In this document: one piece after another, positions 26,273 to 51,905 of the stretch
Layout of the letters: each line of letters starts with the position of its first letter
Position numbering within the stretch: the stretch's first letter is position 1
Source: an uncultured Fluviicola sp.
Lineage (GTDB): Bacteria; Bacteroidota; Bacteroidia; Flavobacteriales_D; Crocinitomicaceae
Assembly: GCF_902168135.1 (NCBI RefSeq)
Contig: NZ_CABHOL010000048.1
Coordinates: 1-64,000 of the forward strand
Reading direction: 5' to 3'
DNA: 64,000 nt
Notes under the pieces: generated by a model
The model's database searches: none
Seen by the model: only the letters and a program-made list of their open reading frames with translations
What the model was told of the DNA's origin: nothing
Translations under genes and position numbers: made by a program

Positions 26273-29119
26273 CTAATGATGCGGCGGTCCGTGTGGTCCT
26301 CCATCTTCCGGCTTCTCCTCTTTCGTTTCCGGAGCTTTCGTACCGAAGTTCCGCAGGTTGTAAGTCAAGGTCACCATGTAATACCGGTTCAGTACATTCG
26401 ACTTCACGTCTTCGATGTAAGATTCCGTCACGTTTCGCGTAATGCTGTTGTTGTTGTTCAGGATATCGAACACGGAAACACGCAGTTCCAGTTGTTTTTT
26501 CTTCAGGAGCTTGTACCCGATCCCGCCGTTCCACAACATGATTGTCTGGTTGAAGCCCGAGCCCAAACCGGCATAGGCATTTACGGAATAAGTACTGTTG
26601 ATCACCAAACGCTCTTTGATGATCCAGTTGAAACGCGCATTGACATTGTGTACGAAATATTCGTTGCTGGCTACATTCTGGCGGGTATTGACCACGTTGT
26701 TGTAGTTCAGGGTATAACCCACCGTGAAATCCAGGTTCTCACTGATATTGCTCGAAACAGTCAAACCTCCGTTGGCATTCGAAGTCTTCGCTTTATTGAC
26801 CACATTGTTGATCAAACCGGGAGCAACGGTATACGCTCCGCCCAGGTAGAAATTCAGGTTCAGTTTCAGCTTCGTTAAAGAAAAACCGTAAGAGATCGAT
26901 GAACGCCCATTGTAGCTTCCCGGCAGGTTTACCGGCTGACGGAACTGCGCCCCGCGAAGCAATACCACATTTCCATTGACAACCGTATCGTTCGTGGCAA
27001 TGATCGTTCCGTTCGAAATGTAATTCTGGTTCACCTCTCCGCCGAAGAATACATTGAAATTGGTAGCTTTCTGAACGTTTGTTTTGTTGAAGCGTCCGAA
27101 TACGCGGTGGTTATACTGCTGCTTCAGATCCGGGTTCCCCGATGACAGGGAAAGCGGGTTGGAGTTGTCGATCACATTCTGCAATTGGTCAATCGTGGGG
27201 TTGCGTGTACCTGCCCGGTAGACAAGCATCAAAGAAGTTCCCTTCGAGAATTCATACCTGAAACGCATATTCGGCAAAAGGGAATTGAACGATAAATTCA
27301 CATTGCGGGTAGTAGGGAATTCCTGCACATTCATCAACAGGGAATTCTGGTAGCCGATCCCCACCTGGAAACTTGCTTTCCCCTTCTGGAACCGGAAATT
27401 CGTTCCGCCTTCGTTCACAATAGTTTGGTTCCCGAACACGTTTGAAAGCGTCGTATCCATGAAATAGTAGGAATTCGTTACCGTATCGAAATCATAAGTG
27501 CGCTTGTCTGCATTGCTCGTTGTGTAGGCCGGAGCATAGTAAAACTCACTCGACCAGGACTTGCTGAGCGGTTCCGTAAAGGAAAAACGCCCGCTCACCC
27601 CGTAACCATTCGTGTTGTTATCGGTGTGCTGGTCGATCTCTGCCAGGGAATCCTGTCCCAGTTCATCGTAATAGCGCGACGAAGAAAGCTGTCCGTTATT
27701 CCCCTCTTTCACGTTGTAAGTTCCGGTGATATTTGCCGAGAATGTACGTCTCGGTTTCGCAAAGCGGTGGCGCCACAACACGCTGGTACTTGCATTCAGT
27801 CCTTTGGTATCGCTGAAGGTGCGGTTATTGATCTGGTTGATGAGCACATTACCGGCATCCGCTGTTGTTCCGTCGGTAGTCTGTGTGCGCTCATTTCCCT
27901 GGTAACTCACTTTCGGATTAATCACCAGCGAGTTCATGGAATCCAGGGCGATATCGAACTTGAAGTTCAGGCGGTGGTTCGCGTTTTTCATCGTAGACAA
28001 AAAGTCCTCGTTGTAGATTTGTCCGGCAGTTGTAGAAAGCACGTAAGTCCGGCTGGTCTGCTGCGAGTTTTTCGTATCGGAGGCGTTGAAGAAATAGCTT
28101 CCCGTCACTTTGGTATTCTTGTTCTTTCCCCATTTATCCGAAAGGTTCAGTCCCAGTCCGTGCGTCATGCTCACCCCGTTTTGCTGCGACACCAGGTAGT
28201 TCTCATTATCGCCGCCGCCAAAGCGTCCGCCCCTGCCACGCGCGTTTCCTGTTCCACCCGTTGCTCCCAGGATATCATCCGTAGAAAAATTCTGTTGGTT
28301 CACGTTATTCGACATTCCCACGATGGAAAGACGGCGCGTTCCCTTAAAGAAGTTCACGTTCAGTCCCGCCAGGTACAAATCGTTCGGAGTTCCGTATCCG
28401 GCATAGATCTTCCCGAACTGCCCGTTGTTTTTCCCGGTTTTGGTTACAATGTTGAGGGCCTTAGCCTCATTCCCGTCCGAAATCCCTGTAAACTTGGCCT
28501 GGTCACTCGCCTGGTCGTAAACCTGGATCTTAGAAACGATCTCAGCCGGCAGGTTCTTCATAGCCGCCGCGGCATCGTCCCCAAAGAATTCCTGTCCGTC
28601 GATCATCACCTTGGTGATCTGTTCGCCCTGTGCTTTCACCACCCCGTTTTCCAGCGTAATTCCCGGCATCTTGGTGATGAGGTCCTGCACCGTCGCATCT
28701 ACATTTACCTTGTATGCATCCGCATTGTACTGCGTGGTATCGCCTTTCTGTTCCACCCGCACCGCATTGGCTTCGATGGTTACTTCGTCGAGCTTCGTAT
28801 CGGTTTTCATCACCACATCCAAAACGGTTTTCCCCTCCGGCAAAACCACGTTCCGGAACTGGTCGACGTACTCAAAAAGTGTGACTTTCAGGATGTAATT
28901 CCCGGGAGTGAGGTCTGTCAAAAGGTACATCCCGTTCTCGTCGGTATTCACAGCTGTGATAACGGAAGAATCCGCCGCTGCGAGCAATGCCACGCGGGCA
29001 TCCATCAATTTCTCGGATGTTTTGGGATCGGTAACTTTCCCGGAAAGTTCGGTTTGTGAGTAGCCAATAAAAGAAGTAAGGATGGTAACGCATGTAAAAA
29101 GTGCGATTCGAATCTGCAT
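26273..29119 (-). CDS. Outer-membrane beta-barrel receptor (TonB-dependent receptor-like)
   Basis: I start at 29119, where MQIRIALFTCVTILTSFIGY followed by SQ makes a signal peptide; an extension to 29161 adds only hydrophilic residues. The 948-residue protein has a carboxypeptidase-regulatory domain (about 20-105, ELSGKVTDPKTSEKLMDARV). A plug-like domain with DLITKMPGITLENG, VMIDGQEFFGDDAAAAMKNL and IVTKTGKNNGQFG follows, then an OMP_b-brl_3-type barrel. It lacks a SusD partner. The extreme C-terminus is unusual: after the last barrel strand (MVTLTYNLRNFG) comes a charged tail ending GGPHGPPHH, which could bind metal. Family membership is clear; ligand unknown. Confidence 0.88.
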   Translation of the reverse strand: MQIRIALFTCVTILTSFIGYSQTELSGKVTDPKTSEKLMDARVALLAAADSSVITAVNTDENGMYLLTDLTPGNYILKVTLFEYVDQFRNVVLPEGKTVLDVVMKTDTKLDEVTIEANAVRVEQKGDTTQYNADAYKVNVDATVQDLITKMPGITLENGVVKAQGEQITKVMIDGQEFFGDDAAAAMKNLPAEIVSKIQVYDQASDQAKFTGISDGNEAKALNIVTKTGKNNGQFGKIYAGYGTPNDLYLAGLNVNFFKGTRRLSIVGMSNNVNQQNFSTDDILGATGGTGNARGRGGRFGGGDNENYLVSQQNGVSMTHGLGLNLSDKWGKNKNTKVTGSYFFNASDTKNSQQTSRTYVLSTTAGQIYNEDFLSTMKNANHRLNFKFDIALDSMNSLVINPKVSYQGNERTQTTDGTTADAGNVLINQINNRTFSDTKGLNASTSVLWRHRFAKPRRTFSANITGTYNVKEGNNGQLSSSRYYDELGQDSLAEIDQHTDNNTNGYGVSGRFSFTEPLSKSWSSEFYYAPAYTTSNADKRTYDFDTVTNSYYFMDTTLSNVFGNQTIVNEGGTNFRFQKGKASFQVGIGYQNSLLMNVQEFPTTRNVNLSFNSLLPNMRFRYEFSKGTSLMLVYRAGTRNPTIDQLQNVIDNSNPLSLSSGNPDLKQQYNHRVFGRFNKTNVQKATNFNVFFGGEVNQNYISNGTIIATNDTVVNGNVVLLRGAQFRQPVNLPGSYNGRSSISYGFSLTKLKLNLNFYLGGAYTVAPGLINNVVNKAKTSNANGGLTVSSNISENLDFTVGYTLNYNNVVNTRQNVASNEYFVHNVNARFNWIIKERLVINSTYSVNAYAGLGSGFNQTIMLWNGGIGYKLLKKKQLELRVSVFDILNNNNSITRNVTESYIEDVKSNVLNRYYMVTLTYNLRNFGTKAPETKEEKPEDGGPHGPPHH

Positions 29120-29260
29120 AAATTGGGTTTGTTTGTGTCCTTTGGATGTTTCCGGGGGCAAAAGGTTTAGTTTGCGAAGGGAAAAAATCGGTCGGAATAT
29201 GCAAAAATCGTGCCTGGGGGAAGGTTGAAGAGTTCAATTGAATCAACCAATACTTAACCA

Positions 29261-29312: not shown

Positions 29313-30020
29313 ATGAAGACAATCACTCTTATTCTCCTGCTTTTACTAATCAGCACAAACACTGTCAACTCCCAGAAAAATCTTTTATGCATTCGTGTGC
29401 TATTAGGCGATGACACCCCGGCAAAAGCACTTCCTGTAAACGTTCACAATCCCAATGACTCACTCATCGCCAGTTTGACAACAGATAAAGACGGTAACGT
29501 AAATTTTCGCTGTAATGAGCTCATTGTGAACCTTGACATTCGTTCCAACGATCTGAAATTCAAATCCACTTATGACCGCTGCTACTTGCTTCAGAATGAC
29601 ACGACACAAAAGATTTACATACTCTGCAACCGCAGTGCAGATGAAGTTGCTATGATTAAACAGGGAATGAAAAAAATCTCCTTTATAGGGAGAAGTAACA
29701 TTCCACACGGGTCTTGTCCTGAAATTATTCCGGCACAGGATCCAGAAACAATGAAAGAAATCCATGCCTGCCTGATCGAAAATCTTCATTACCCGGAAAT
29801 AGCTGTGGAAAACGATCTCGAAGCAAAGATCAAAATTCGCTTTTTAGTGGACGAAAACGATCAAATCAGAAACCTCCAAATCTTCAACGGCTCCTACGCT
29901 ATCCTCGAAGAAGAAGCACTCCGTGCAGCTTCATGCCTTTCGGGATACGTAGCCGTATCCTGCGATGGAAAAAAGGTGCCGACGATGTTTACACTGCCTT
30001 TGAGTTTTCGATTGAATTAG
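29313..30020 (+). CDS. Secreted protein with TonB C-terminal-like domain
   Basis: A 235-residue protein with a signal peptide (MKTITLILLLLLISTNTVNS). A beta-sandwich of the carboxypeptidase-regulatory type (about 22-95) is followed by a TonB C-terminal-like domain: HACLIENLHYPEIAVEND, then KIRFLVDENDQIRNLQIFNG, then EEEALRAASCL and a closing strand FTLPLSFRL. In Bacteroidota this domain often occurs in periplasmic proteins that touch outer-membrane receptors. There is no N-terminal TM-proline TonB stalk, so it is probably not an energy transducer itself. It is monocistronic and convergent with the defence operon, 25 bp away. Confidence 0.75.
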   Translation: MKTITLILLLLLISTNTVNSQKNLLCIRVLLGDDTPAKALPVNVHNPNDSLIASLTTDKDGNVNFRCNELIVNLDIRSNDLKFKSTYDRCYLLQNDTTQKIYILCNRSADEVAMIKQGMKKISFIGRSNIPHGSCPEIIPAQDPETMKEIHACLIENLHYPEIAVENDLEAKIKIRFLVDENDQIRNLQIFNGSYAILEEEALRAASCLSGYVAVSCDGKKVPTMFTLPLSFRLN

Positions 30021-30045: not shown

Positions 30046-30603
30046 CTAAATCAATGTATCAACAACTATGTACCTCAATTCTGAATTCTTTGGTCGATAA
30101 CCTTTGCATGCATCCCGATTAAAGCAAATCAATTTCATAACATCTTGATTTTCGGTATTTTTCAATTTACTTCTTGTTTTGAATAGTTTCGTCATAAAAA
30201 AAGTAGGGGCTGTATTGAATGCCTCTGCATAAAAAACAGGATTATCATCCACATCGAATCCAATGATGTCATGTTTTTGTTTATTAGAATGACCAAAATC
30301 AACCTCTACTCTTTTAAAAGAAGGTAACGCTTCAATTTTATTCTCAAAAATCAGGAGAAGTGTATTATAAATGACGCAATCAGTAAGAATGCGATTAGCA
30401 GATTCTAATAAAGTAACATGAGGATATGGTCCTTTTTTTATTATATCCCGTTTTAAACACTGCATTAATTCCAGCGACGAATTCGCAGAAATCACAGGAT
30501 CTATTTCATTCAGTTGATGTTTAAATCCCACTATTTCGCTTTGAACTTCTTGCAACGAATCGAATGTCGATTTTCTATTTATTTTCGGTAAGTTTTCGAT
30601 CAT
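30046..30603 (-). CDS. Unknown protein at the 3' end of the type I restriction operon
   Basis: I choose the ATG at 30603, which shares one base with the stop of the upstream ygjP-like gene (TAATG), giving 185 residues; a longer frame to 30645 would overlap ygjP more deeply. I recognise no family. The N-terminal half is helical. The C-terminal half is alpha/beta: FKRVEVDFGHSNKQKHDIIG, then FDVDDNPVFYAEAFNTAPTF and KLFKTRSKLKN. The spacing of an acidic residue, a turn and a strand ending A-E-A-F is reminiscent of nuclease cores, but the expected lysine after the glutamate is absent, so no catalytic claim is made. Overlap with the operon argues that it acts with the restriction system. Confidence 0.6.
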   Translation of the reverse strand: MIENLPKINRKSTFDSLQEVQSEIVGFKHQLNEIDPVISANSSLELMQCLKRDIIKKGPYPHVTLLESANRILTDCVIYNTLLLIFENKIEALPSFKRVEVDFGHSNKQKHDIIGFDVDDNPVFYAEAFNTAPTFFMTKLFKTRSKLKNTENQDVMKLICFNRDACKGYRPKNSELRYIVVDTLI

Positions 30604-31295
30604 TATAAAGGTAACTCGTTCAACTTTTTTTTCTGGGCACGCCACAGTGGAAGAAACTGATCCATCAACTGGATGAATCGTTTATTATGACGTCTCTCAA
30701 TTAAATGAATCATTTCATGAACTACTATATATTCAATGCATTCCAATGGTTTTTTAGCCAATTCGATATTGAAAAATAATGTACCGCTATCAGCACAACT
30801 TCCCCATTTAGTTTTCATGCTTCGAATGGTGATTTTGGGGGTTGGAACCAACATAATTAAAGAATATTTCTCAAGAAATAATTCAATTCGCTCGCGAAGA
30901 TTCTTTCTATAAAAAGTGTTCAGCACCCTTTGTTTAGAAGAGAAATCATTAGTATCATTTACATAGATGACTAATCTTTTTCCCTTCTTCTCAACTCGGG
31001 ATTTTTTAGATTGTTCGATCAGCAATAAATAACGCTCACCAAGAAAATAATGACTTTCCTGATTAATAAATAATCGAGGTTCTTCTCTTAATTGATTTTT
31101 GAATTTACGTTGTTCCTTTTTTATCCATCCCAACTTGGTAGCCACGTAAATTCTAACTTTTTCAAGATCATAGAATTCGGGGGACGAAATGGTTACTCGC
31201 CCTTCCGGAGGATGAACGCTGAGATGAAGGTTTTTTATCGCTTTAAAAGTAACTTCTATCTCCAAATTGGAATATTTCAAAATATGTTTTTCCAC
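30603..31295 (-). CDS. YgjP-like zinc metallopeptidase domain protein
   Basis: A 230-residue cytoplasmic protein of the YgjP/WLM-gluzincin group (M48-like). The zinc site is VVHEMIHLIERRHNKRF at about 195-211, matching HExxH-x-n-H; the preceding TKWGSCADSGTLFFN block is the other family hallmark. The start is a GTG that overlaps the hsdR stop by one base (TAGTG), and an in-frame ATG further in would remove conserved N-terminal strands. YgjP-like genes often accompany type I restriction loci, where their role is not established; substrate trimming or regulated turnover of a partner is a guess. Confidence 0.88.
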   Translation of the reverse strand: MEKHILKYSNLEIEVTFKAIKNLHLSVHPPEGRVTISSPEFYDLEKVRIYVATKLGWIKKEQRKFKNQLREEPRLFINQESHYFLGERYLLLIEQSKKSRVEKKGKRLVIYVNDTNDFSSKQRVLNTFYRKNLRERIELFLEKYSLIMLVPTPKITIRSMKTKWGSCADSGTLFFNIELAKKPLECIEYIVVHEMIHLIERRHNKRFIQLMDQFLPLWRAQKKKLNELPL

Positions 31296-34200
31296 TAATA
31301 GTCGTCTTTGTGGGATTCTATTACTTTGTAAATTTCCTCTACCTTTTTTGCATCTGGAATAACCTCATAAATTGCTTTCTTAACCAAGTTCCGCTTAGCC
31401 AGATTTTCCCGGAAGCCATCCTGTTTAGCGTATTGAATTGCAACATCACATGCTATTGTTAATTCTTCATTATCATCAAGTGTATGATAAAGAGCAACCT
31501 TACCTTTTGTATTTATGGAATTTGGAACATCATCCTTTTTCCCTCGATTCACCTGGCGAATTAGTTCCGCCATTTCTTTTAGATATTGCTGGTAGGAAAC
31601 GATTTCAGATTTACGTCGTTCGATCAATTCCTGAAGCAAAACAGACATTTGATCAAAATACTTCGGATCAAGCAAGTGCTCTTCAACTATTTTACTTCTG
31701 ACATTATTTTCAATAACTTCTGCTACCGCATCTCTATTTGCCCTTATTTCTTTTGGGAGCGAATCAATGGCTTTCTGCATGTTTGTCTCCAGCAGATCAA
31801 GCAGCGAAATATCTTCAAATGGGGTGATCGTTTCAGACTCTTCTGCCCGTATGTATGTATCAATAAGAAAACGCATATCTGCTTCGTAAGCTTTTAAATT
31901 AATCGTTTCACCACTTGCAATTCGAATAATTTCACGCAGATTTAGATAATCTTCCATTTTCTGATGAAAGTTCTTTATCTCTTTGTCCGTATAACTTGTT
32001 TCGGCGAAATCTGCTTTCAACCCGGTGTAAGCGCGAATGTATTCTACGATAGCTTTGTACAATGCCATCCGTTTGTATTCATTCGATTTTAAATCGTCCG
32101 GATTTTCTGTATTACCACAGAAGTATTGGATGTATTGTAAATCCGTTCTTGGATTCTCAACATTTTGACAAATGCTTTCCACGGTTTCCAGCGCTGTTTC
32201 TAACCTGTCAATTGCAATTTTGAGTCTGTTTTTCAATTGAACTTCAACCTCCGATTTCGAAAAGCCTTCACAATCCAATTCAGAAGTATAAACATTGATT
32301 GCATCGGTAACATTTCCAAATAACTCCATGTAGTCAATAATATAACCGTAGTCTTTGTCATCTGTATCCAAACGGTTTACGCGGCAAATTGCCTGGAACA
32401 ATGTATGGTCCTGCATCTTTTTATCAATGTAGATATAAGAACAAGGTGGCGAATCAAAACCCGTTAGCAGTTTAGAAACGACAATAAGCAACTTCATCCG
32501 TGCAGGTTCTTTTCTGAATTGCTCCTTGGAATAACTTTCATAGGTTTCCGTGGCAGATTTCCCTCCTTTAACACCAACGTTTTTCAAAAGTTCAGTATAG
32601 GTGTTATAAATAAACTGACGATCGGTCTCACTATCCGTTCCAGTATCTTCCAAAGAAACATCACTTGCATTCGGATTGTAAGATGTGATAACTGCACATT
32701 TATTTTTCAATTCAGTATTGAGAAATAAACTATAATATTTACAGGCTTCATATATGTTTGATGCCACCAAAATAGCATTTCCCATTTGCGATTTTAAACG
32801 CGGTTTAACTGAAAAATCCATCAGGATATCGGACACAATTTTTTCCATCCGACTTTTAGAACTGAGGACATTTTGCATCGTACCCCATTTCTTTTTTAAT
32901 TCGTTTTTCTGGAATTCATTTAATCCAGCTGTTTTGGCTTCAAACCATTGATCAACTTTGGTTTGAGAAGTCAGGTTTTGTTCAATAGAGCGTCCTTCAT
33001 ACATTAAGTCTTTTACAACCCCATCTTCAACCGCTTCGTTGAATTTGTAAGTATGAATATATCGTCCGAAAACATCCATAGTTGTTTTCTTATCTTGTTT
33101 CAAGAGCGGGGTTCCCGTGAATCCAATAAATACCGCATTGTGCAACACAGCTTTCATTACCTGGTTCAACTTACCTCCTTGTGTGCGGTGACATTCATCT
33201 ATGAATACAAAAATCTCTCCTTGCGTTTTCACCGGATTGCTTTGCAACTCGGCAATAAATGAATCAAAATCAGTCTCCTGTTTATTACCAAACTTATGAA
33301 TAAGGGAGCAAACCAAACGTGGTCTAGACGAGGTTAAAAACTGCATCAATTCTTTTCCTGAACGAGTTCTTGCTACATCTGTTTCACCTACATCTTTGAA
33401 TACACGTTCTATCTGATCGTCGAGTTCTGTGCGGTCAGTTAAAATGACTACACGTGAATTCGGAACATTCTCCAAAATCCATTTCCCTAACATCACCATC
33501 AAAAGTGATTTTCCGGAACCTTGTGTATGCCAGATAATCCCCCCTTCTTTTCTTCGAACAAATTTCTGAGCCTCCTTAAGTCCAAAATACTGATGAGGAC
33601 GTGGAAGCTTCTTTAATCCTGCATCGAAGACTACACCATCGTGAATCAGATCAATCAAACGATCCTTTCCACACAGTTTCTTAAGATACTTATCCAGTTT
33701 GTAACCGGAATTATCATCTTCATCTTCTTTCCAGGGAAGATAATACTTCGCCTGGGTTTCAATGGTTCCATATCTCAACCCTTGGGTATTGTTCCCGGCC
33801 ATCAGTAATTGAACAGTGGTATAAAACCATTCATTAAACATCTCCTTTTGGTTGGAAATGCATTGATTGATACTTTCTGATAAATCTGTAGTACCACGTT
33901 TCAATTCCAATACTCCGATAGCAATGCCGTTGATGTACAATACAATATCTGGACGTCGGTTATTTTCTCCTTTGGTCAGGGTTACTTCTTCTGCAATACC
34001 AAATTCGTTCTTCTCAAAGTTATTCCAGTCAATCGGGAAAATTGTCTCAAACTGCTCTCCCAGTTCCGGTCGCGCTTTTACTCCGTAACGCAGTAACGAG
34101 TACATGTTCTTATTACGCTCATACAAATTACCCGTTGTTGCCATAGCGAGATCATAAGTCTCCTTCACAGCTTTTTCTGCAAGTACTTCGGAGTAACCCC

Positions 34201-34348
34201 TGCTAATCAAATTCTTTTTCAGAATAAATACTTCAACATTATAGTTTTGTAGGCGTGTTTCCCAGTTACCATAATAAGTGTAACCAAGTTCTTCCACAAA
34301 GAGCTTAATGATACGATTCTGGGTTTCGCGTTCTATAGGGTTGATCAT
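31295..34348 (-). CDS. hsdR: Type I restriction enzyme, R subunit
   Basis: A 1017-residue DNA translocase/endonuclease. The N-terminal nuclease domain shows a PD-(D/E)xK core (RRPDIVLYINGIAIGVLELK, about 132-150). The SF2 motor has Walker A HTQGSGKS (about 274-281), the DECH box FIDECHRTQGG (about 382-392), motif III GFTGTPLL (about 409), and motif VI QAICRVNR (about 652-659). A long helical C-terminal domain follows and presumably docks on HsdM. All catalytic motifs look intact. Its ATG overlaps the stop of the DUF262/DUF1524 gene by four bases (ATGA), and its stop overlaps the ygjP start, so it is embedded in one long transcript. It cleaves unmethylated DNA after translocation as part of the R2M2S complex. 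Confidence 0.96.
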   Translation of the reverse strand: MINPIERETQNRIIKLFVEELGYTYYGNWETRLQNYNVEVFILKKNLISRGYSEVLAEKAVKETYDLAMATTGNLYERNKNMYSLLRYGVKARPELGEQFETIFPIDWNNFEKNEFGIAEEVTLTKGENNRRPDIVLYINGIAIGVLELKRGTTDLSESINQCISNQKEMFNEWFYTTVQLLMAGNNTQGLRYGTIETQAKYYLPWKEDEDDNSGYKLDKYLKKLCGKDRLIDLIHDGVVFDAGLKKLPRPHQYFGLKEAQKFVRRKEGGIIWHTQGSGKSLLMVMLGKWILENVPNSRVVILTDRTELDDQIERVFKDVGETDVARTRSGKELMQFLTSSRPRLVCSLIHKFGNKQETDFDSFIAELQSNPVKTQGEIFVFIDECHRTQGGKLNQVMKAVLHNAVFIGFTGTPLLKQDKKTTMDVFGRYIHTYKFNEAVEDGVVKDLMYEGRSIEQNLTSQTKVDQWFEAKTAGLNEFQKNELKKKWGTMQNVLSSKSRMEKIVSDILMDFSVKPRLKSQMGNAILVASNIYEACKYYSLFLNTELKNKCAVITSYNPNASDVSLEDTGTDSETDRQFIYNTYTELLKNVGVKGGKSATETYESYSKEQFRKEPARMKLLIVVSKLLTGFDSPPCSYIYIDKKMQDHTLFQAICRVNRLDTDDKDYGYIIDYMELFGNVTDAINVYTSELDCEGFSKSEVEVQLKNRLKIAIDRLETALETVESICQNVENPRTDLQYIQYFCGNTENPDDLKSNEYKRMALYKAIVEYIRAYTGLKADFAETSYTDKEIKNFHQKMEDYLNLREIIRIASGETINLKAYEADMRFLIDTYIRAEESETITPFEDISLLDLLETNMQKAIDSLPKEIRANRDAVAEVIENNVRSKIVEEHLLDPKYFDQMSVLLQELIERRKSEIVSYQQYLKEMAELIRQVNRGKKDDVPNSINTKGKVALYHTLDDNEELTIACDVAIQYAKQDGFRENLAKRNLVKKAIYEVIPDAKKVEEIYKVIESHKDDY

Positions 34349-36381
34349 AATAAACTTTGTTTTAAAAGTTCAACGATAGATTGATTATGCACTTTGATTT
34401 CATCAACAGACCAAGATTTGTCAAACTTCATCATTTCCATTTGCTTAATACTGTCTTTTGACTGCGATTTTGTATAATGTTCTCTTTTTGACATCGGTAA
34501 ATAGTTACTAAGCTTTGAATTATTGCTATGAGATATCAAACACAAATTGCCAATGCAATTTAATACAGAATCATCCTCAATTCTATCTCCACTAATCGGA
34601 TTTTGAGGGTAATAATGTTCGACCGAACTCCTAAATGAAAACTCGAACTCTTTGTATTCCTCTTTATTAATTTGCCACAAAAGATAATCAATGTAATTGA
34701 AAACAAGATTATTTCTAATTTGCCCGTAACTTAAGAGATCCAAATTAAAAGATTCATTCTTCTCTTCAAGATTATCATACAACAGTTCATCATAACTCAA
34801 TTCTTGTTCTCCATTCAAAAATCTATATTTCAAAAATTTAATTGCAACTGACCTCAAAAAATCAGCATAGTTTTCGAAATGAACATTTTCAGGATTTTCC
34901 AAACCTTTTTTATTTGCATGGAAGCTATATACTTCATTGAGAAACTTTAACGCCTCAAACAACCAATATTTATAGACTTGTGTTGGTATAGAAACATGGA
35001 ACATCGAGAGCAGCAGAATAAGCTCATCATTCTTATTCTTATCTGAATAAAGGTTGACATAATTATATGACTCTTTATCCCGAACGTTCTCTACCTTCGG
35101 ATAAAATTTCAGTACTTCCAGACTCCAGAAATCCTCTCCAACCAAATATTTTCTTTTAATAACATACTGATCCAACAAGAATTTATTCTTTAATAACTGA
35201 TAGGCGAATTCCTTAACGAACTGCTCTTTATCCTTTGCTTTCTCCAGAGTTATCTTGAAAAAACTCAACAATCTTTTATCATCCAAACTAACAGAAAAAT
35301 CAGGATTGGTCAATTTTAAAGTGTGGAGAAGAAAATTCTCGAAATTAATAATCGGCTGATATTGTTTAGAATCTGATTCATTAATGATGTTTTCGTCTTG
35401 CAATTGTTCAATCTTCTTTGTCAAAACGGATAAATCTTTCGTGTTTACAATATCAGAAAACGATATTCCTTCATTCTCAGTTTTAAAAACTGATGAACTA
35501 CTATCCATCAGTTGAAACATTTGTTCACTTGATTCGGGTACAAACTGAAACCAACGATCTCCGAAAAGTTTCATTCGCAACTCTTTAGGAAACAGTAATT
35601 GGACATATGTATCCATTTGTGAACAGGCTTCCCAGATCATGTTGAATTGTCTTCTAATCACTTTTGCGTTAGAACAGTTATTTAATTCCTTCATCATTCG
35701 GGACTTAAGAATCTCATGCTTCTCTAACTGTTCCCCTCTGGAATTCATTATTTCAAAATAATGATTCAAATCAGTGTCTAGAGGAACTTGAACCCTAACA
35801 ATTATGACCTTATGAAATAAGTAATTTAAAAACCCTTCAAAGGTTTTGCTCTTCCAACTTACTTCTTTCCTAATTGAAGAAAATTGTTCTTCTAACTGTT
35901 TTAGCTGATTATACAGAACTCTGTTTCCAGCAATAATATTGTCGTTAAAGTCCGTAAAGTTGGGTTTGTCAGAACCATTATTAAAAACAAACTCTATTGT
36001 TTTCTCTGAAATCGGTCGTGATTCAAAGTGAATAATTGTTTTGGATAGGAAATCATTCACCGATTCTGGAATTTTGTTTTCCATCGCCAATGCTTTTAGA
36101 GCGCAGATTAATAAATTAAATGTTGTTAGTCTCTGTTGCCCGTCAATAGTCTCATACAAAGGTTCCTTGCTTTCTAAACGACGGTTAACCACCAATGTCC
36201 CTATATAATACTGCTTGTCTTCTTCCTCAATGTAATAATCTTTGATATCTTCAATAAGCTGAATAATCTGTTTATCCTCCCATTCGTAATTACGCTGATA
36301 TATTGGAATTAGGTACTTATCACTTCCTGTAAACAGCTCCTTAATCGTTAAGTTCTTTATATCCTGATTATTAGTTTGCAT
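34345..36381 (-). CDS. DUF262-DUF1524 (GmrSD-like) protein
   Basis: A 678-residue protein with the fused architecture of GmrSD-type modification-dependent (type IV) restriction enzymes. The DUF262 N-terminus has IPIYQRNYEWEDKQIIQLI (about 25-43) and the nucleotide-binding signature TIDGQQRLTTFNLL (about 78-91). A long helical middle follows. The DUF1524 HNH-type nuclease at about 580-635 has SSVEHYYPQNP, then LNCIGNLCLISHSNNSKLSN, the usual HxxP...GNL...N arrangement. It starts 11 bp inside a second DUF262 gene and ends overlapping hsdR. In known relatives the DUF262 part hydrolyses nucleotides and the DUF1524 part cuts modified DNA; the target here is unknown. Clearly AT-rich relative to flanking chromosome. 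Confidence 0.9.
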   Translation of the reverse strand: MQTNNQDIKNLTIKELFTGSDKYLIPIYQRNYEWEDKQIIQLIEDIKDYYIEEEDKQYYIGTLVVNRRLESKEPLYETIDGQQRLTTFNLLICALKALAMENKIPESVNDFLSKTIIHFESRPISEKTIEFVFNNGSDKPNFTDFNDNIIAGNRVLYNQLKQLEEQFSSIRKEVSWKSKTFEGFLNYLFHKVIIVRVQVPLDTDLNHYFEIMNSRGEQLEKHEILKSRMMKELNNCSNAKVIRRQFNMIWEACSQMDTYVQLLFPKELRMKLFGDRWFQFVPESSEQMFQLMDSSSSVFKTENEGISFSDIVNTKDLSVLTKKIEQLQDENIINESDSKQYQPIINFENFLLHTLKLTNPDFSVSLDDKRLLSFFKITLEKAKDKEQFVKEFAYQLLKNKFLLDQYVIKRKYLVGEDFWSLEVLKFYPKVENVRDKESYNYVNLYSDKNKNDELILLLSMFHVSIPTQVYKYWLFEALKFLNEVYSFHANKKGLENPENVHFENYADFLRSVAIKFLKYRFLNGEQELSYDELLYDNLEEKNESFNLDLLSYGQIRNNLVFNYIDYLLWQINKEEYKEFEFSFRSSVEHYYPQNPISGDRIEDDSVLNCIGNLCLISHSNNSKLSNYLPMSKREHYTKSQSKDSIKQMEMMKFDKSWSVDEIKVHNQSIVELLKQSLL

Positions 36382-37789
36382 AATAATTATTGCTTTTAAA
36401 AAAAGTAACGATTCGTTGATCTATTCTTCTTGAACCCTCTTTCGAGAAATCTTCTATTTGCTGATAACCTGGCAATTGCAACACTGGTGCTTTGATCACT
36501 TCCTTCGGTTGAATCGCATTTTTGATAATCAGAAAAAGATTGTTCTTAATGACATAATTATCAACAGAGTCGAAACCCAAACGTTGATATTCAAACCGCA
36601 AATAATAACACCAAACAAAGGCTTTCTCAATAAACTCCTGCAACTCATTCTCACCAAACTTATCAATGTAATAAATAGTCACGCATTCAAACAAATCTTT
36701 CAGGTAACTTTCTCCCTCACGGTAACTATATTGATTGCGATAAACATATTTTACCAACAATTCCGTAGAAGTACAATCACTATCTAAACTACCAATGGGT
36801 TTTAGGAATTTTTCTTTGAATCGTTCATTAATCCCCAAATAATAATCGATATATTCAAAAAAGCGTCTCCCATTAATCATCAACTGGTCAATTTGAAAGG
36901 GAAAACTCATGTATTGTCTATCAATTTTCCGTTCAACATTCTCATTGTAATTATCTACCAGGTGATGCGCAATTTGCATTGCTTTTACGTATGGAAAACT
37001 TTCAATTTTATCTATGCTAATGCCTTTAAAAAGATCAATATGTTGTTTACCGAAATATCTGGAAGAACGACTATTGCTCCAACCTTTAATTCTAAATAAA
37101 TAATCTGAAAAAAGTGCTGCCAATTTACTTGAAGTATACTTTTCCCAATGATCTACGATTCGCGTTTGTGCATCCCTATCAGAACTATCAAACTCTCTTA
37201 AGTGATAAGCTTTTAATAAATCATGGGGATACAAATCTTTCCCTCTGGAATTCTGTGAATCAAAGAACTGAAAGGCCTCAGTTTCATCCGTAATAAAGAA
37301 AACAACCACCTGAAATTTCAATACAAAGTTCGTAATGGTTTCATCATCGAAATTTTGGATGGATCTTTTAATAAGCTGATAATTCTCGTTAATGGTTTGA
37401 ATGCTTGTTTTATTGGTGTACTCAATAGCTATTGCATCCAGTTTAATTTTTAAATCTTGCAGCAAATTTCTAGTATTCCCCTGGTATCTGGAGTTATCTT
37501 TTGTTTGCTGACATAATGCATAAATGAGTAATCGCAAGGTGGTATAACGTTGCTGACCATCTACAATATCGTGGTAAGTTGTATGAACATCATCTTCTAT
37601 TAACGAATTTTCATGAATAACGATTGTTCCAAAACGATAATGCGATTTCTTGCGAAAACTGTGAATGTCATCTATTAACTGTACTACATTTTTTGAATTC
37701 CATTTGTATGGTCTTTGGTACTCAGGAATTCTGATCTTCTTCAGACTGATGAATTCTTGTATGGAATAGATTTCGGCTCGGTTATTCAT
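36371..37789 (-). CDS. DUF262-domain protein without DUF1524
   Basis: A 472-residue protein with the DUF262 signature in its first 100 residues: IRIPEYQRPYKWNSKNVVQL (about 19-38) and HDIVDGQQRYTTLRLLIYA (about 73-91). A long helical body follows, with no HNH/DUF1524 block at the C-terminus. The central phrase FFDSQNSRGKDLYPHDLLKA also occurs in DUF262 relatives, equivalent to MNSRGEQLEKHEILK of the neighbour. It is therefore the sensor/ATPase-like half alone. It starts 12 bp after hsdS and its stop lies 11 bp inside the next DUF262 gene. A paired, nuclease-less DUF262 could form a heteromeric partner, but this is inference. Confidence 0.85.
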   Translation of the reverse strand: MNNRAEIYSIQEFISLKKIRIPEYQRPYKWNSKNVVQLIDDIHSFRKKSHYRFGTIVIHENSLIEDDVHTTYHDIVDGQQRYTTLRLLIYALCQQTKDNSRYQGNTRNLLQDLKIKLDAIAIEYTNKTSIQTINENYQLIKRSIQNFDDETITNFVLKFQVVVFFITDETEAFQFFDSQNSRGKDLYPHDLLKAYHLREFDSSDRDAQTRIVDHWEKYTSSKLAALFSDYLFRIKGWSNSRSSRYFGKQHIDLFKGISIDKIESFPYVKAMQIAHHLVDNYNENVERKIDRQYMSFPFQIDQLMINGRRFFEYIDYYLGINERFKEKFLKPIGSLDSDCTSTELLVKYVYRNQYSYREGESYLKDLFECVTIYYIDKFGENELQEFIEKAFVWCYYLRFEYQRLGFDSVDNYVIKNNLFLIIKNAIQPKEVIKAPVLQLPGYQQIEDFSKEGSRRIDQRIVTFFKSNNYYAN

Positions 37790-37801
37790 GAATGTGTTTG
37801 T

Positions 37802-39052
37802 TTAGATAAATCTTGTCCTTCCTGTCAACAACTCCTGCATCATGCCCTGCTTTATTTGCCGGGCTTTTGCCAATTGATTATCTAATGTTTCCAGCTCTAT
37901 ATCCATGTCTGACAAAATGGTGGCGATGCGGGTTTGTTCTTCGAGGGATTTTGGAATCATAATTTTAATATTCCCCAAATTTCCTCTTGAAATTCTTTTA
38001 TGAGTAGTTCCTCCAACCTGTTCTAAAACTTGTTTAAACCATTCATCTGTAGAAAGCAGATATAATAAAACCCTTCTATCAAAGACATTAACATCAGGTC
38101 TGTAAATTGTTACATCAACAGAAGTTACACTTTTCCTATCTTCAGTTTTAGGAAAAATACAAACTCTTCCAGCAGGTTCTGCTAAACGGCAAATCAATAA
38201 ATCTCCTTCTAATATTTCCTTGCACTTTAAATCAACAAAGGATTTTTCAGAAATGTATTTTTTATTGCTCTTATTTAAAAATTTACCAACTCCAATATTT
38301 CCAGTTTGAATTAATCTTATCCCTTCTTCTTTTATGTGAATAGCTTCAACCCAATCTCCGTCATTAAATAAATCTCTTTTTTTCTCAGCTATTTCAAAAA
38401 TTGTTTTTTCCTCCCAATCATCTTTCGGAGTTAACAACTTCTGCATTGCACCTTGTTTGATCAGACGTTTTTTATTAACGAGTTTTTCCAGACTTTCGAT
38501 CCAAGTATCCGTGTCACTCAACGCTTCCGCTATAAATTCTTGTTCTGGCAAGGGGGGGAGAGGAATTTGAAAACCTTTAATTTCATTAGAATTAATTCCT
38601 GGTTGTCCACTTCTCATTGAATTAGAAATAATCCAATTTTTGTAATATGTTGTTTGAGTATTGTAGAAAACGAATTTTGAACTTGCTTCCTCAGTATTAA
38701 TTTTTAGTCGAATTAAGAAGCCTGCAAATACTAATCTGCCATCATATTCCTTATACAAATATGTTTTTCCTACACTCGCACCTGTTCTTGCAAATACAAT
38801 TTCATCCTTATTCAAATAATATTTTTCAGAATTTATATTATTCACTGATGATAAATTTTTTTTAATAAAATTCCCTTCATCATCAATATCTGTAATTCTC
38901 AAATAAGTTGGCAAAGCATCATTGTATTTCACAGCTGAGGCATTTATTCCATAATCAGGATTTGACAACAAAATATCTCCTAAACTCATCACCTCCCAAT
39001 CCTCAGGCAACAAACCAATCTCTGTTTGCTTCATTGTCGTTTCCTTCACCAT
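37802..39052 (-). CDS. hsdS: Type I restriction enzyme, S (specificity) subunit
   Basis: A 416-residue DNA-recognition subunit with two target-recognition domains. Each opens with the usual phrase (IGLLPEDWEVMSLGDIL and DDWEEKTIFEIAEKK) and each is followed by a helical conserved repeat (PLPPLPEQEFIAEALSDTDT to KQGAMQKLLT, and IPKSLEEQTRIATILSDMD to KQGMMQELLTG). This internal twofold repeat is diagnostic of HsdS. The start overlaps hsdM by 7 bp; an alternative ATG six codons in (MKQTEIGLLPED) is also credible and would leave a short gap. Both recognition domains look complete, so a bipartite target is expected; the sequence cannot be predicted. Confidence 0.95.
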   Translation of the reverse strand: MVKETTMKQTEIGLLPEDWEVMSLGDILLSNPDYGINASAVKYNDALPTYLRITDIDDEGNFIKKNLSSVNNINSEKYYLNKDEIVFARTGASVGKTYLYKEYDGRLVFAGFLIRLKINTEEASSKFVFYNTQTTYYKNWIISNSMRSGQPGINSNEIKGFQIPLPPLPEQEFIAEALSDTDTWIESLEKLVNKKRLIKQGAMQKLLTPKDDWEEKTIFEIAEKKRDLFNDGDWVEAIHIKEEGIRLIQTGNIGVGKFLNKSNKKYISEKSFVDLKCKEILEGDLLICRLAEPAGRVCIFPKTEDRKSVTSVDVTIYRPDVNVFDRRVLLYLLSTDEWFKQVLEQVGGTTHKRISRGNLGNIKIMIPKSLEEQTRIATILSDMDIELETLDNQLAKARQIKQGMMQELLTGRTRFI

Positions 39053-41484
39053 ACCAATCCCATTTTCTCCAGATGGAGTTTTACTTTTTGAGAAGCCTCA
39101 TTCACTTCTGTTTCTAAAGCTGAAAGGGGATTTTCATACCGATCTGCCAGTTGCTTAATTCGTTGGGTCAAATTTTGGCTCAACTTCTCCTGCTCATTAT
39201 TCAAAGCTTGTTGTAATACGAATGTCCATTTATGGTTAATGACCAAGTCTTTTATTTCAGCTTCGCTTAATAAGGGATACTGTGCAACAATTTTCGCTTC
39301 CAGATTCTCTTTGGCAATTTTAATCAGCTTATTAATACCAGCCAAAGCTTCATGCGTATCGATATAATTTTTAATGTATTTTAATTCTTCTTTGGGTGCT
39401 TTATCTGCTTTACGTGTTTTGTAAAGGTCTTTTACGTTTTTCAAATTGATCTTTTCCAAATCACTGAAAATGCCTTCTTCTCCGCTGTTCTCTTCTTCCA
39501 TTTCAGTAAGAGCTTCCTGGGTTAGGTTCAACTGATTTTCCAACTCTTGTAAAGCATCATACTGTTCTTTAAAGAAATAGTTAATCAACATTGTCGGTGT
39601 TATCATTCTGCCTTCAATTCCAACCAAACCGGAAATGTCTTTATCCGCACTCGTTTTGCCATCTTTCCCTTTCTTACCTTTGATCACCAAACGTGTGAAT
39701 TCATTTCCTGCTTTCCAGCCATCCATTGCAATGCTGTAAAAATCATCCTGCATTGTTTCTCCCCAGTATGCCATAAGATGTTGATACATGGCATATTTAT
39801 TAACCAGTACATTATTCTCAAAATGATCTAGTAAGGATTGAGAAATGCTGTCAATATGCTCTTTCACCGCAAAACCCTCTTTCAAATTATTCCAGTTGTT
39901 TTGCTGTAGGTGTAACCATTTATCAAATTCAGTATGCATAGCAGCATTGAAATTCACAAATTCCGGATGATTGAAAATAGTAGATTTAATGGTTTCGGAA
40001 GATACCTTTAGTTCAAAATACCCCGTTCTTGCCGTACTAAACAATTCAGCTTTCAGTGCTGGAAACAAATCCCAATAAGCCTGTAAAGAATCTATATCTT
40101 TCTGTGGTATTCCACCCAGTAAATGACCACTAAGATCCTGAATATCTTCGGCCTCTTGTGTATCAATATAGCGTGGTATATTAAGATTGTAATCGTTTTT
40201 CTCATCACTGATTTCAGAAATGGAAACCATGCGGCTGAATTTTGGAACCTCTGCAAAAGCATCAAATACATCCGTAATCTTGCGAATATCTTGCTCACGC
40301 AGACGATTCTTGTTACCGTCTTTGACAAATCCCTTGCTGGCATCTATCATAAAAATGCCTTTACGCTGTTCCGCATTTTCTTTATCAAGCACAAGGATAC
40401 ATGCCGGAATTCCTGTTCCATAAAACAAATTGGCAGGTAAACCTATAATTGCTTTAATGTAACCCTTCTTCAGAATGTTCTTACGGATTTCGCCTTCCGC
40501 ATTACCTCGAAACAAAACACCGTGTGGCAATACAACTGCACCTTTTCCTTTCGACTTCAGTGATTGAAGTATGTGTAACAGGAATGCATAATCCCCATTC
40601 TTCTCAGGAGGAACTCCCAAAGCGAAACGATTGTATTCATCACTTTCAATATTTACACCATTACTCCAGCTTTTCAATGAAAATGGTGGATTAGCAACTA
40701 CGTAATCAAACTTTTTCAGACTTCCATCAGCCTCCTTATAGTACGGTCGTGACAAGGTATTATCTGCATAAATTGTCGCCGTTTCAGCCCCATGCAGAAT
40801 CATGTTCATGTGTGCCAGATTGGCTGTGGTAGTTTCTTTTTCCTGTCCGTAAAGGTCAATGTTCTTTCCCGCTTCGTTCATCACCTTAAGCAGCAATGAC
40901 CCAGAACCACATGTGGGATCATAAGCAGTCGTTTGACGAGAAGAATTCTTCTCATTGATACCAATCACTTTTGCCAATATGCGAGAAACTTCTGCTGGTG
41001 TATAAAATTGTCCTTTGGATTTCCCTGATTCGGTTGCAAAATGACGCATGAGGTATTCATACGCATCGCCTAAGATATCATCACCTTCTGCAGAATTGCC
41101 GGAAAAATCAAGGCTCGGATCATTAAAGATCAGAACCAAATTGGAAACAGTATCAATCAGGTCCTTCCCTTTTCCAAGTTTCGATTCATCGTTGAAATCC
41201 GGAAATTCGTTTAGTTTATTTGCTTCCTTAATTGGATTTAGAATTTGCTTGTTGATCTTATCGCCAATTTCATCATTCCCGATAAGATTAACCATATCAT
41301 CAAAACTAGCACCTTCTGGAACTGTTATCGCAGAATAAGGATTTCCCTTGTACTTGTCGGAAACATACTTTACAAATAGCAAAGTCAGCACATAATCTTT
41401 GTATTGAGACGCGTCCATTCCACCGCGTAATTCGTCGCAACTTGCCCAAAGAGAGCTATATAATTCAGATTTTTTTATGGCCAT
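39046..41484 (-). CDS. hsdM: Type I restriction enzyme, M (adenine methyltransferase) subunit, long form
   Basis: An 812-residue N6-adenine methyltransferase. The helical N-terminal HsdM domain includes LRGGMDASQYKDYVLTLLF. The SAM-binding motif I is YDPTCGSGSLLLKV (about 188-201) and the catalytic motif IV is NPPF (about 265-268). The protein is some 250-300 residues longer than compact HsdM proteins; the extra C-terminal part is helical and charged, with a coiled-coil-like LENQLNLTQEALTEMEEENS stretch near 650, and ends RYENPLSALETEVNEASQ. It is the first gene of the operon; TAATTTTG (minus strand, 41496-41503) is a good -7 box 12 bp upstream. It protects host DNA by methylating the HsdS target. 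Confidence 0.95.
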   Translation of the reverse strand: MAIKKSELYSSLWASCDELRGGMDASQYKDYVLTLLFVKYVSDKYKGNPYSAITVPEGASFDDMVNLIGNDEIGDKINKQILNPIKEANKLNEFPDFNDESKLGKGKDLIDTVSNLVLIFNDPSLDFSGNSAEGDDILGDAYEYLMRHFATESGKSKGQFYTPAEVSRILAKVIGINEKNSSRQTTAYDPTCGSGSLLLKVMNEAGKNIDLYGQEKETTTANLAHMNMILHGAETATIYADNTLSRPYYKEADGSLKKFDYVVANPPFSLKSWSNGVNIESDEYNRFALGVPPEKNGDYAFLLHILQSLKSKGKGAVVLPHGVLFRGNAEGEIRKNILKKGYIKAIIGLPANLFYGTGIPACILVLDKENAEQRKGIFMIDASKGFVKDGNKNRLREQDIRKITDVFDAFAEVPKFSRMVSISEISDEKNDYNLNIPRYIDTQEAEDIQDLSGHLLGGIPQKDIDSLQAYWDLFPALKAELFSTARTGYFELKVSSETIKSTIFNHPEFVNFNAAMHTEFDKWLHLQQNNWNNLKEGFAVKEHIDSISQSLLDHFENNVLVNKYAMYQHLMAYWGETMQDDFYSIAMDGWKAGNEFTRLVIKGKKGKDGKTSADKDISGLVGIEGRMITPTMLINYFFKEQYDALQELENQLNLTQEALTEMEEENSGEEGIFSDLEKINLKNVKDLYKTRKADKAPKEELKYIKNYIDTHEALAGINKLIKIAKENLEAKIVAQYPLLSEAEIKDLVINHKWTFVLQQALNNEQEKLSQNLTQRIKQLADRYENPLSALETEVNEASQKVKLHLEKMGLVW

Positions 41485-41570: not shown

Positions 41571-41939
41571 TCACTCCTCCCCATCCAAAACCTCATTCAT
41601 CATAAAAATATAGCTGTTTCTTCTGAGCATCATCGTGGTCAATTTATAGATCACTAAAAAGAGGAGTGCTACAGTCATAACCGGAAAGGCCTGTTCACCG
41701 GAATCCACCGCTTTCAAATGAGCAAGCTCTTTGAATAGTTTGATAAATGATTCATCGTCTTTTGGGACAGGTGGGTTTTCATACGAAAGGTACATGTAAA
41801 CACTAATCCCCGCCAGGACAAAAAATCCCGCCAAACTGGTATACCTGACCAGTAACATAAACAAAGAATTTCCGATAGCGCTGGGCTGGTACTTTCGCAG
41901 GCCCCGGATACGCGCAAGAGTTTGTTGAGGTGTTTCCAT
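41571..41939 (-). CDS. Small membrane protein of unknown function
   Basis: A 122-residue protein with two hydrophobic segments (about 26-51, NSLFMLLVRYTSLAGFFVLA, and about 86-101, FPVMTVALLFLVIYKL) separated by an acidic/Lys loop. No family recognised. GC content is closer to the general chromosome than to the restriction operon it precedes, so it probably marks the operon's upstream border. It is separated from the next minus-strand gene by 85 bp without visible features. Confidence 0.6.
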   Translation of the reverse strand: METPQQTLARIRGLRKYQPSAIGNSLFMLLVRYTSLAGFFVLAGISVYMYLSYENPPVPKDDESFIKLFKELAHLKAVDSGEQAFPVMTVALLFLVIYKLTTMMLRRNSYIFMMNEVLDGEE

Positions 41940-50189: not shown

Positions 50190-51905
50190 ATGAAACACCT
50201 GAATCTGTTATTAACACTAACACTTTTAACAACGCTTTCTTTTGCCCAGACTCCCGAGTTTGAATGGGTACACACTTATGGAACTACGGAAAGTGAGTGG
50301 GGAAAAGCACTTGCTGTTGATAACCAAAATAATGTTTACGCAGCCGGTATGTTCGAGGGAACAATTGATTTTGACCCGGGTACCGGAGTTACAAACCTGT
50401 CTTCGGGAGGCGGGAGAAATATCTTCATCCAAAAACTGAATCCTGCCGGAGACCTCCTTTGGGCCAAAGTATTCCCTTCCGGAAGTTCATTCAATGTTAC
50501 GGCAATAACGACCGATTATCAGAACAATGTGATCATTGCAGGATACTTTAACGGAAATTCCAGTTTCCCAACAGTTGACAGTACGTCTACTATCTCTAAT
50601 CAAACCTCACAATCCGATGCTTTTATTGTTAAAATGAATGCAGCCGGGCAATTCCTTTGGGCAAGATCCTTTGGCAGCCCTACTGATTCAGGAATAGCCG
50701 GTGATCAGATTACAGGCATAAAAACAGATAACTCCGGAAATATTTATTCAACAGGCTATTATTACGGCACTGCGGATTTCGATCCGGGACCGGCAACTGC
50801 AAACCTCAGCAACTCTTCCGGAAACAGCGATATTTTCATCCAGAAACTGAATCCGCAGGGAAACTATGTTTGGGCAAAAAGAGTGGGAGGAAGCGGATAT
50901 GACCAGGCAACTTCACTGGAAGTTTATCAAAACACAGTTCTGATCACCGGCTGGTTCCAGCTTGCGGTCGATTTTAATCCGGGACCTGCCACCAACCAGC
51001 TGATCGCCGGGGCATTATCTACCGATATGTTTCTCTTGTTTCTTACAACGGATGGTGATTTCAACCAGGTAAAACATTTCGACGGTCCGTACACGAATAA
51101 AGGGGTTGATGTAGCCACAACAACTACCGGCGAAATCTACCTCACCGGTACTTACAGTGACACTCTTGATTTGGATCCCGGAACAGGTACTTTTTTAATT
51201 TCCAGTGATATCACAAGCTTCTTCGTACTAAAACTAACGCCAACAGGGGATTTCATTTGGGGAAAAGGCTTTTCGGATGACGGTTTCAAATATTCCATTG
51301 CATTGGATGTGCTTCAACAGAAAGGAGTCGTCATTTCCGGTATGTTCAGCGATACGGTTGATTTTGATCCCGGGAATGGTATCAGTAACCTGGAAGCAAT
51401 TGGAGAGGTGGATGTCTTCCTGCTTTACCTGGACGAAAATGGGGATTATGTTTGGGCGGGCTCTTATGGAAACACCTCACCCTTTTACAATGATCTGTTA
51501 TGGGATATCGCTACTGACAACAGCGGAAGCATTTACTCCACCGGTTGGTATATCGAAACCGTAGATTTTGATTGTGGGTCGGGATTAGAGGAACGAACGT
51601 CCGTTTTATATGACGATATCTTCATCTTAAAAATGCATGCGGACCTGTTATCTGTAAGTGAGTATTCAATTCCTGATTTCAAACTCTACCCCAACCCATC
51701 GAGCGGGAATCTTTTTATTTCAGCCGAAAACCTGAATAACTGTAAGGTTGAGATCTATAGTTCCATGGGAACAACCGTATTGACAAAAGAATTGTCGGAC
51801 ACAGATAACCAACTGGAAGTTCAAAACCTTTCACCGGGAAGTTATGTGGTTCAATTGACAAACGAATACGGCTCAAAACGCCAAAACTTCGTGAAAATCG
51901 ATTGA
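50190..51905 (+). CDS. T9SS-secreted seven-bladed beta-propeller protein, copy 2
   Basis: A 571-residue paralogue of the preceding gene, with a signal peptide (MKHLNLLLTLTLLTTLSFAQ). The blades align one to one: TIDFDPGTGV, the odd second blade FPTVDSTSTIS, ADFDPGPATA, VDFNPGPATN, LDLDPGTGTF, VDFDPGNGIS and VDFDCGSGLE. The aspartate-rich turns could bind calcium. The C-terminal sorting domain DFKLYPNPSSGNLFIS and NLSPGSYVVQLTNEYG are almost the same as in copy 1. The 127-bp gap between the two holds no feature I can name beyond a T-rich TATTTGTATTTTTAG stretch that may be promoter. The stop is followed by a structured repeat. Confidence 0.87.
   Translation: MKHLNLLLTLTLLTTLSFAQTPEFEWVHTYGTTESEWGKALAVDNQNNVYAAGMFEGTIDFDPGTGVTNLSSGGGRNIFIQKLNPAGDLLWAKVFPSGSSFNVTAITTDYQNNVIIAGYFNGNSSFPTVDSTSTISNQTSQSDAFIVKMNAAGQFLWARSFGSPTDSGIAGDQITGIKTDNSGNIYSTGYYYGTADFDPGPATANLSNSSGNSDIFIQKLNPQGNYVWAKRVGGSGYDQATSLEVYQNTVLITGWFQLAVDFNPGPATNQLIAGALSTDMFLLFLTTDGDFNQVKHFDGPYTNKGVDVATTTTGEIYLTGTYSDTLDLDPGTGTFLISSDITSFFVLKLTPTGDFIWGKGFSDDGFKYSIALDVLQQKGVVISGMFSDTVDFDPGNGISNLEAIGEVDVFLLYLDENGDYVWAGSYGNTSPFYNDLLWDIATDNSGSIYSTGWYIETVDFDCGSGLEERTSVLYDDIFILKMHADLLSVSEYSIPDFKLYPNPSSGNLFISAENLNNCKVEIYSSMGTTVLTKELSDTDNQLEVQNLSPGSYVVQLTNEYGSKRQNFVKID

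Follow-up and report, generated by a model that had tools for sequence, protein, structure and literature searches.

A TgvAB-type gene pair within a type I restriction locus of an uncultured Fluviicola species

A 64,000-nucleotide stretch of contig NZ_CABHOL010000048.1 from an uncultured Fluviicola sp. (phylum Bacteroidota), called the window below, holds an operon of seven open reading frames (ORFs), all on the minus strand, at 30046-41484. Very probably this operon is a type I restriction-modification locus, itself probably acquired horizontally, that carries a TgvAB-type two-protein type IV system in the gap between hsdS and hsdR, the two providing complementary restriction. The genes are listed in gene order, with Pfam match values and motifs.

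39046-41484, minus strand: hsdM, type I N6-adenine methyltransferase (812 aa; N6_Mtase 1e-108; DPTCGSG, NPPF)
37802-39052, minus strand: hsdS, specificity subunit (416 aa; two Methylase_S stretches, 2.6e-33)
36371-37789, minus strand: tgvA-like gene (472 aa; GmrSD_N (DUF262) 1.6e-31 and DUF7834 1.5e-66)
34345-36381, minus strand: tgvB-like gene, DUF262 and DUF1524 His-Me nuclease (678 aa; GmrSD_N 1.1e-32, GmrSD_C 8e-12)
31295-34348, minus strand: hsdR, restriction/translocase subunit (1017 aa; HSDR_N 1.1e-30, SWI2_SNF2 5.3e-74)
30603-31295, minus strand: ygjP-like zinc metallopeptidase (230 aa; YgjP-like 1.3e-56; HEMIH; overlaps hsdR by 1 bp)
30046-30603, minus strand: gene 7, rare unnamed family (185 aa; no Pfam match over cut-off)

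A two-protein system between hsdS and hsdR

The coordinates, single direction, overlaps of 1 to 11 bp and 12-bp gap reported in an initial annotation of this DNA were all reproduced from the ORFs, whose junctions from hsdM to gene 7 measure -7, +12, -11, -4, -1 and -1 bp. The annotation did not name the strand, which is the minus one. All seven frames are open. The annotation had also read the genes as one unit of expression; the tight junctions it pointed to are there, and their spacing suggests co-transcription. Its gene identities are backed by strong Pfam matches for six of the proteins, gene 7 being the one with no match over cut-off.

HsdM, HsdS and HsdR domains are intact in Pfam, and PADLOC names all three proteins. 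HsdR carries an RPD...ELK nuclease motif, a Walker A motif (GSGKS) and a DECH box, and its best solved match by sequence is an EcoR124I-type HsdR; the motif residues of HsdM, HsdR and YgjP are those that we take to be diagnostic of these families.

Placed between hsdS and hsdR, a gene encoding DUF262 only adjoins, with an 11-bp overlap, a gene encoding DUF262 and DUF1524. The first protein has YQR, DGQQR (77) and FDSQN motifs and no DUF1524 match, and the second has YQR, DGQQR (80), FxxxN, EHYYP (588) and GN (611); by pattern matching, then, QR, DGQQR and FxxxN occur in both proteins, and EHYYP and GN in the second, whose solved relatives are a DUF262 protein (9jfl) and SspE. Motif residues for DUF262 and DUF1524 proteins, including H571 and N602 of TgvB, were defined by Vizzarro et al., 2024, who described in Vibrio cholerae VPI-2 a five-gene operon in which two genes inside a type I locus make up TgvAB, which belongs to the GmrSD family and acts on hypermodified T-even phages (PMC11411939). 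As reported there, TgvA and TgvB are both required for the restriction of T-even phages, and activity is lost on mutating the DGQQR motif of either protein or the His-Me motif of TgvB. The survey in that study gave 79 five-gene and 1,341 tgvAB matches in 41,142 genomes, so that embedding among type I genes is not a strict requirement of TgvAB; without the type I genes tgvAB protects, although against several phages the complete cluster does so 10- to 100-fold more strongly (PMC11411939). What the initial annotation called two GmrSD-like genes is better seen as one two-protein system of this kind.

TgvAB could instead be a guard of the type I enzyme in the manner of PrrC/EcoprrI, responding to inhibition of HsdMSR and not to modified DNA. 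The prrC gene, we presume, also lies in the hsdS-hsdR gap. PrrC, whose gene is embedded in a type I locus, does act that way (PMC12707154), and DarTG2 lies between hsdS and hsdR in the RRDM island (PMC12255303). We nevertheless give the guard very little credence, as published TgvAB acts on T-even phages without type I genes, and phages without glucosyltransferases escape it, according to a companion study cited in the same paper (PMC11411939).

Under the preferred reading of complementary restriction, HsdMS would methylate self DNA, and HsdMSR would translocate and cut unmethylated incoming DNA. The DUF262 NTPase domains of TgvA and TgvB would jointly sense hypermodified cytosines, and DNA so marked would be cut by the TgvB His-Me nuclease, so that phages evading HsdMSR by base modification would still be struck. 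YgjP would be the common tail of a type I chassis, probably a protease regulating restriction or acting on DNA-bound proteins, and gene 7 an extra cargo coupled to the operon end. These roles of YgjP and gene 7, like the activity of the operon and the modification recognised, we infer. A complementary attack on unmodified and modified DNA had already been suggested in the initial annotation; the idea is right, and it was previously published for the five-gene core by Vizzarro et al. (PMC11411939).

Recurrence of the gene order

The window TgvA was matched in 11 of 395 genomes of the phylum at E 1e-10 or better. Roughly 85% or more of the protein was covered in six of these (G000, G142, G033, G351, G151 and G080), and the five partial matches were not counted as TgvA. 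Reading the gene order around TgvA by tblastn in fetched neighbourhoods, we found hsdM-hsdS-tgvA-tgvB-hsdR in four of the six, window included, with ygjP after hsdR in three of those four (the window, G142 and G151). G142 has extra small ORFs in the space from hsdS to tgvA. The type I genes of G033 are only distantly related (hsdR 23%, hsdS partly matched), and no ygjP was found there. The neighbourhood search proposed with the initial annotation thus yields a six-gene order including ygjP in G142 and G151 as well, and the full seven-gene order in the window only. That annotation knew of no named system with exactly this seven-gene order; for the five-gene core there is a published name, TgvAB (PMC11411939). 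The five-gene core is not new; the window operon adds ygjP and gene 7 after hsdR.

Plasmid records matching TgvA number 891, of which 854 are from Klebsiella. The one Klebsiella plasmid locus read (L027, NZ_CP055414.1) has the order hsdS-YecA-hsdR-YgjP followed by tgvA-tgvB. As in the window, hsdM (here cut by the record end), hsdS, hsdR, YgjP (PF01863 4.4e-59), tgvA and tgvB are all present; unlike in the window, tgvAB lies downstream of ygjP, and a YecA-like gene occupies the space between hsdS and hsdR. No TgvA relatives were found in a scan of viral contigs.

Two other arrangements were seen in these searches. On an Aliarcobacter plasmid (L026, 9663-18332), a tgvA-like gene and a second DUF262 gene sit between genes for a PD-(D/E)XK nuclease and a UvrD-type helicase, another embedding of a tgvA-like pair. 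In G142, the gene at 10631-11380 of L019, which encodes 249 aa and lies between hsdS and tgvA, has a sub-threshold match to the PvuRts1I-like N-terminal domain (E 0.01), from a family that we take to cut modified cytosine.

YgjP as a recurring tail of type I loci

The YgjP protein matches PF01863 at 192.3 bits, against a cut-off of 26, and has its HExxH motif as HEMIH; a PDB search gave no sequence match at E 0.01. Matches to SprT and WLM, weak and below cut-off in either case, hint at DNA-linked proteolysis by YgjP. PF01863 is present in 237 of the 395 phylum genomes. An hsdR match lies beside ygjP in 19 of 30 loci, chosen as top-scoring and not at random (two, L052 and L059, by short match only), and in 7 of 20 loci sampled below these among the matches listed. 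The 20 were picked by eye at about every sixth listed row, weaker YgjP matches falling outside the sample; at this spacing, G150 (linked) and G072 (not linked) had been examined already and were passed over, and one of the 20 (L110), with 266 upstream bases only, does not allow linkage to be judged. In a tree built from 41 YgjP proteins, 28 of them linked and 13 unlinked, linkage takes three changes compared with a shuffled mean of 11.3, and none of 500 shuffles was as low. The tree is a quick one in which branches are long and many forks weak, and linkage was in part a criterion for choosing its proteins.

Beyond the phylum, the Klebsiella hsdR-linked ygjP gene is at least 80% present in 546 of 5,426 Escherichia coli genomes. 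Among the E. coli matches listed (25 rows spread over 563 records), 24 of 25 overlap an M48 peptidase and a type I R gene, and the remaining row is a YgjP-like gene alone. YgjP after hsdR is a recurring tail, and the hsdR-ygjP pairing is widespread. The earlier remark that YgjP genes are known near type I loci agrees with this.

ArdC, a metalloprotease with a Spartan SprT-like fold, helps plasmids past recipient hsdRMS (PMC7213743), which indicates that proteases of this kind do come into contact with type I enzymes; its likeness to YgjP goes by description only. Among the articles consulted, PMC3928612 and PMC5587805 included and subscription journals mostly excluded, RRDM was the sole direct case of YgjP, DUF45, SprT or M48 proteins tied to type I genes. 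Two papers listed for DUF45 together with type I systems were dropped, since the term they contain is 'DUF450'. One could go further and regard hsdR-linked YgjP as a dedicated type I partner. It would then be a DNA-associated, SprT/WLM-like metalloprotease that either tunes HsdR or removes phage proteins, whether these are anti-restriction proteins or injected proteins bound to DNA, and the locus would be a general chassis whose cargo, both in the hsdS-hsdR gap and after ygjP, can be exchanged. We regard this fuller version as doubtful. If the protease does act in restriction, a very common class of enzymes would have a component that has received little study.

Cargo on the type I-YgjP chassis

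Of the 22 regions compared, linkage was the reason for choosing 14, kinship for five and a DUF262 match for one; L019 and L022 complete the set. Both hsdS and hsdR are visible in 18; the regions not counted are L069 (cut by a contig end), L084 (no hsdR), and L071 and L079 (no recognisable hsdS). One or more ORFs of 80 aa or more lie between hsdS and hsdR in 15 of the 18, the exceptions being L072, L074 and L077. A Pfam scan of 18 gap ORFs gave matches over cut-off for 11 and none for 7. Clear defence genes account for 3 of the 18, namely SMODS/AGS-C (CBASS) in L085 and GmrSD in L080 and L081. The other matches comprise a DEAD helicase (L083), one GIY-YIG and one DUF4268 protein (L078), AAA_13 (L080), KilA-N (L073), a winged helix (L068) and two Y1 transposase-like ORFs (L067, L082). 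The CBASS-type SMODS/AGS-C gene lies at 5777-7078 of L085, itself a type I-YgjP locus.

The nearest chassis seen (genome G359, L086) has hsdM 68%, hsdS 55%, hsdR 79% and ygjP 64% identical to those of the window, with a single 316-aa gene in the tgvAB position. Pfam gives for this 316-aa protein a sub-threshold integrase SAM match only, and its C-terminus looks HNH-like by eye. The closest tgvA and tgvB (66% and 64%, in G142) stand on a more distant chassis (hsdR 61%, ygjP 43%). With the closest tgvAB on a more distant chassis and the nearest chassis carrying other cargo, the cargo appears to have had a history independent of that of the chassis. The M48 gene of E. coli AH21 is followed by genes for a DUF262-DUF1524 protein and a PD-(D/E)XK protein, an order that suggests a second cargo position, occupied in the window by gene 7. 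In our reading, the operon is a type I-YgjP chassis whose cargo can be exchanged.

Several points weigh against this account and against complementary restriction by the window operon. The assignment of the pair to the TgvAB type goes by domains, motif patterns and gene order only. Two of the six TgvA genomes (G351 and G080) have no type I or ygjP match in the fetched stretch, and type I-YgjP loci without tgvAB also exist, so that any functional coupling of the two is hypothetical. The TgvA and TgvB relatives in G151 are 28% and 25% identical to those of the window, low enough that the family may recognise different modifications. With 7 of the 18 gap ORFs lacking a Pfam match and two transposase-like, 'defence cargo' holds for few of them. 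Finally, we know of no modified-cytosine phages of this host.

Gene 7

The start of gene 7 was set at the ATG at 30603, giving a 1-bp overlap with the ygjP stop; an alternative GTG lies upstream at 30645. Overlapping samples were searched (395 genomes of the phylum, 395 of the class and 371 of the class of G353), and the gene was found in three genomes including that of the window, the two homologues being in G576 and G353. The G576 homologue (L031) adjoins a DUF6855 gene, and neither type I genes nor ygjP were matched in the fetched 19.5 kb. The G353 homologue lies at a contig end, its upstream stretch cut off, and the YgjP of G353 is on another contig. A scan of genome contigs gave a single confirmed locus, the Ignavibacteriae contig of G353, and searches of plasmids and phages gave nothing. 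Two candidates were rejected: viral contig L029, which covers query residues 38-90 only and then has a stop near the contig end, and a G186 match (E 2.3e-5) that sits on a 302-aa ORF read as an unrelated protein.

Residues conserved across the three sequences include E67, N70, R71, D112, E127, F129, N130 and K139. An AlphaFold model made from two sequences (pLDDT 77, pTM 0.81; five models range from 77.3 to 37.0) predicts an alpha-beta-beta-beta-alpha-beta core whose strand and helix order is compatible with PD-(D/E)XK. The best Foldseek match of the model has E 0.09, with none at 0.001; among the weak matches, we take Can2, NucS/EndoMS, YaeQ and DrdV to belong to the PD-(D/E)XK superfamily, and others not to. 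A classical D...(D/E)xK site is absent, E127 lying in E-A-F and K139 in the next helix. A PDB profile search with the gene 7 alignment returned nothing but ATP synthase beta, with E values no better than 0.15, which we put down to chance; in PHROGs, the window and G576 proteins had no match and that of G353 had two weak matches to unknown families. Gene 7 is possibly a PD-(D/E)XK-like protein, the resemblance of the predicted fold being weak.

Alternatively, all seven genes might belong to a single, integrated and new system that needs YgjP and gene 7, for example as a protease that clears obstructing phage proteins from DNA and as an auxiliary nuclease. The tight overlaps that run through to gene 7, the six-gene order in G142 (with its extra ORFs) and G151, and the widespread, tree-clustered hsdR-linked YgjP are what one would expect of such a system. 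The exact seven-gene set, on the other hand, occurs in the window genome only, the G576 homologue has no nearby type I gene, and published TgvAB protects alone, albeit less than the whole cluster against several phages (PMC11411939), and we consider integration improbable. From the settings of its two homologues, gene 7 looks like a sporadic passenger, an extra cargo at the operon end.

Composition and setting

The GC content of the operon is 35.3%, compared with 43.8% for the remainder of the window and 42.4 to 45.2% in same-length overlapping windows outside it (n=61, within the 64 kb), which suggests transfer; the type I locus was probably acquired horizontally. In the same-genus genome G659 we found no PF01863 match and one HSDR_N match elsewhere in the genome, and the operon is accessory on these grounds. 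A comparison with an empty site in G659 was not clean, as a single gene aligns: the neighbour gene 26273-29161 has an 89% identical counterpart, and nothing else aligns in the 19 kb fetched. Low GC, together with cargo that differs between related chassis, would also suit a cluster of defence-island leftovers, some of them inactive. Given the seven open frames, the presence of the motifs searched for and the tight spacing, we think this hardly likely.

A convergent gene (29313-30020, plus strand) ends 25 bp from the end of gene 7, and the next ORF upstream of hsdM (41571-41939, minus strand) ends 86 bp before it. Dispersed repeats of 70-98% identity occur near the operon (43074-43195/44615-44739; 44706-45055/52094-52426; 26012-26102/51990-52080), and a stretch at about 42755-42973 matches three places in a same-genus genome. 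The adjacent segments 48721-50058 and 50564-51905 share 64% DNA identity, probably through gene duplication. Exact matches to their own reverse complement were seen at 9743-9782 (40 bp) and 5098-5131 (34 bp).

Comparison with known systems

RloF, as we take it, is a single DUF262 gene, unlike the TgvAB pair. RloF/GmrSD homologues in type I loci resemble the window operon in having a DUF262 gene between hsdS and hsdR (PMC4619093). A GIY-YIG modified-cytosine system (PMC12923530) was dropped as a match, being a different protein.

The closest described counterpart is the V. cholerae VPI-2 TgvAB locus. We assume that its order begins with hsdM and then hsdS; the remaining order comes from the locus numbers of the paper. 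The two loci share the five-gene composition, the pair inside type I genes, the DUF262 and DUF262-DUF1524 proteins and the motif types; they differ in that ygjP and gene 7 follow hsdR here, while YgjP has 0 occurrences in the main text of the V. cholerae paper (PMC11411939). The host of the window operon also belongs to a phylum other than that of V. cholerae, which places the arrangement of TgvAB within a type I locus in another phylum.

The RRDM island of E. coli E2348/69 is alike in having type I genes, a defence cassette in the hsdS-hsdR gap and, downstream, a metallopeptidase gene; it is unlike in that the cassette is DarTG2, a regulator (RptR) is present, and the peptidase is named M48 and is likened to YgjP by description only (PMC12255303). 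These likenesses suggest that the VPI-2 TgvAB locus and RRDM are variants of a single layout, in which the type I genes leave room for cargo in the hsdS-hsdR gap (PMC11411939; PMC12255303) and which in RRDM and the window operon also has a metallopeptidase tail.

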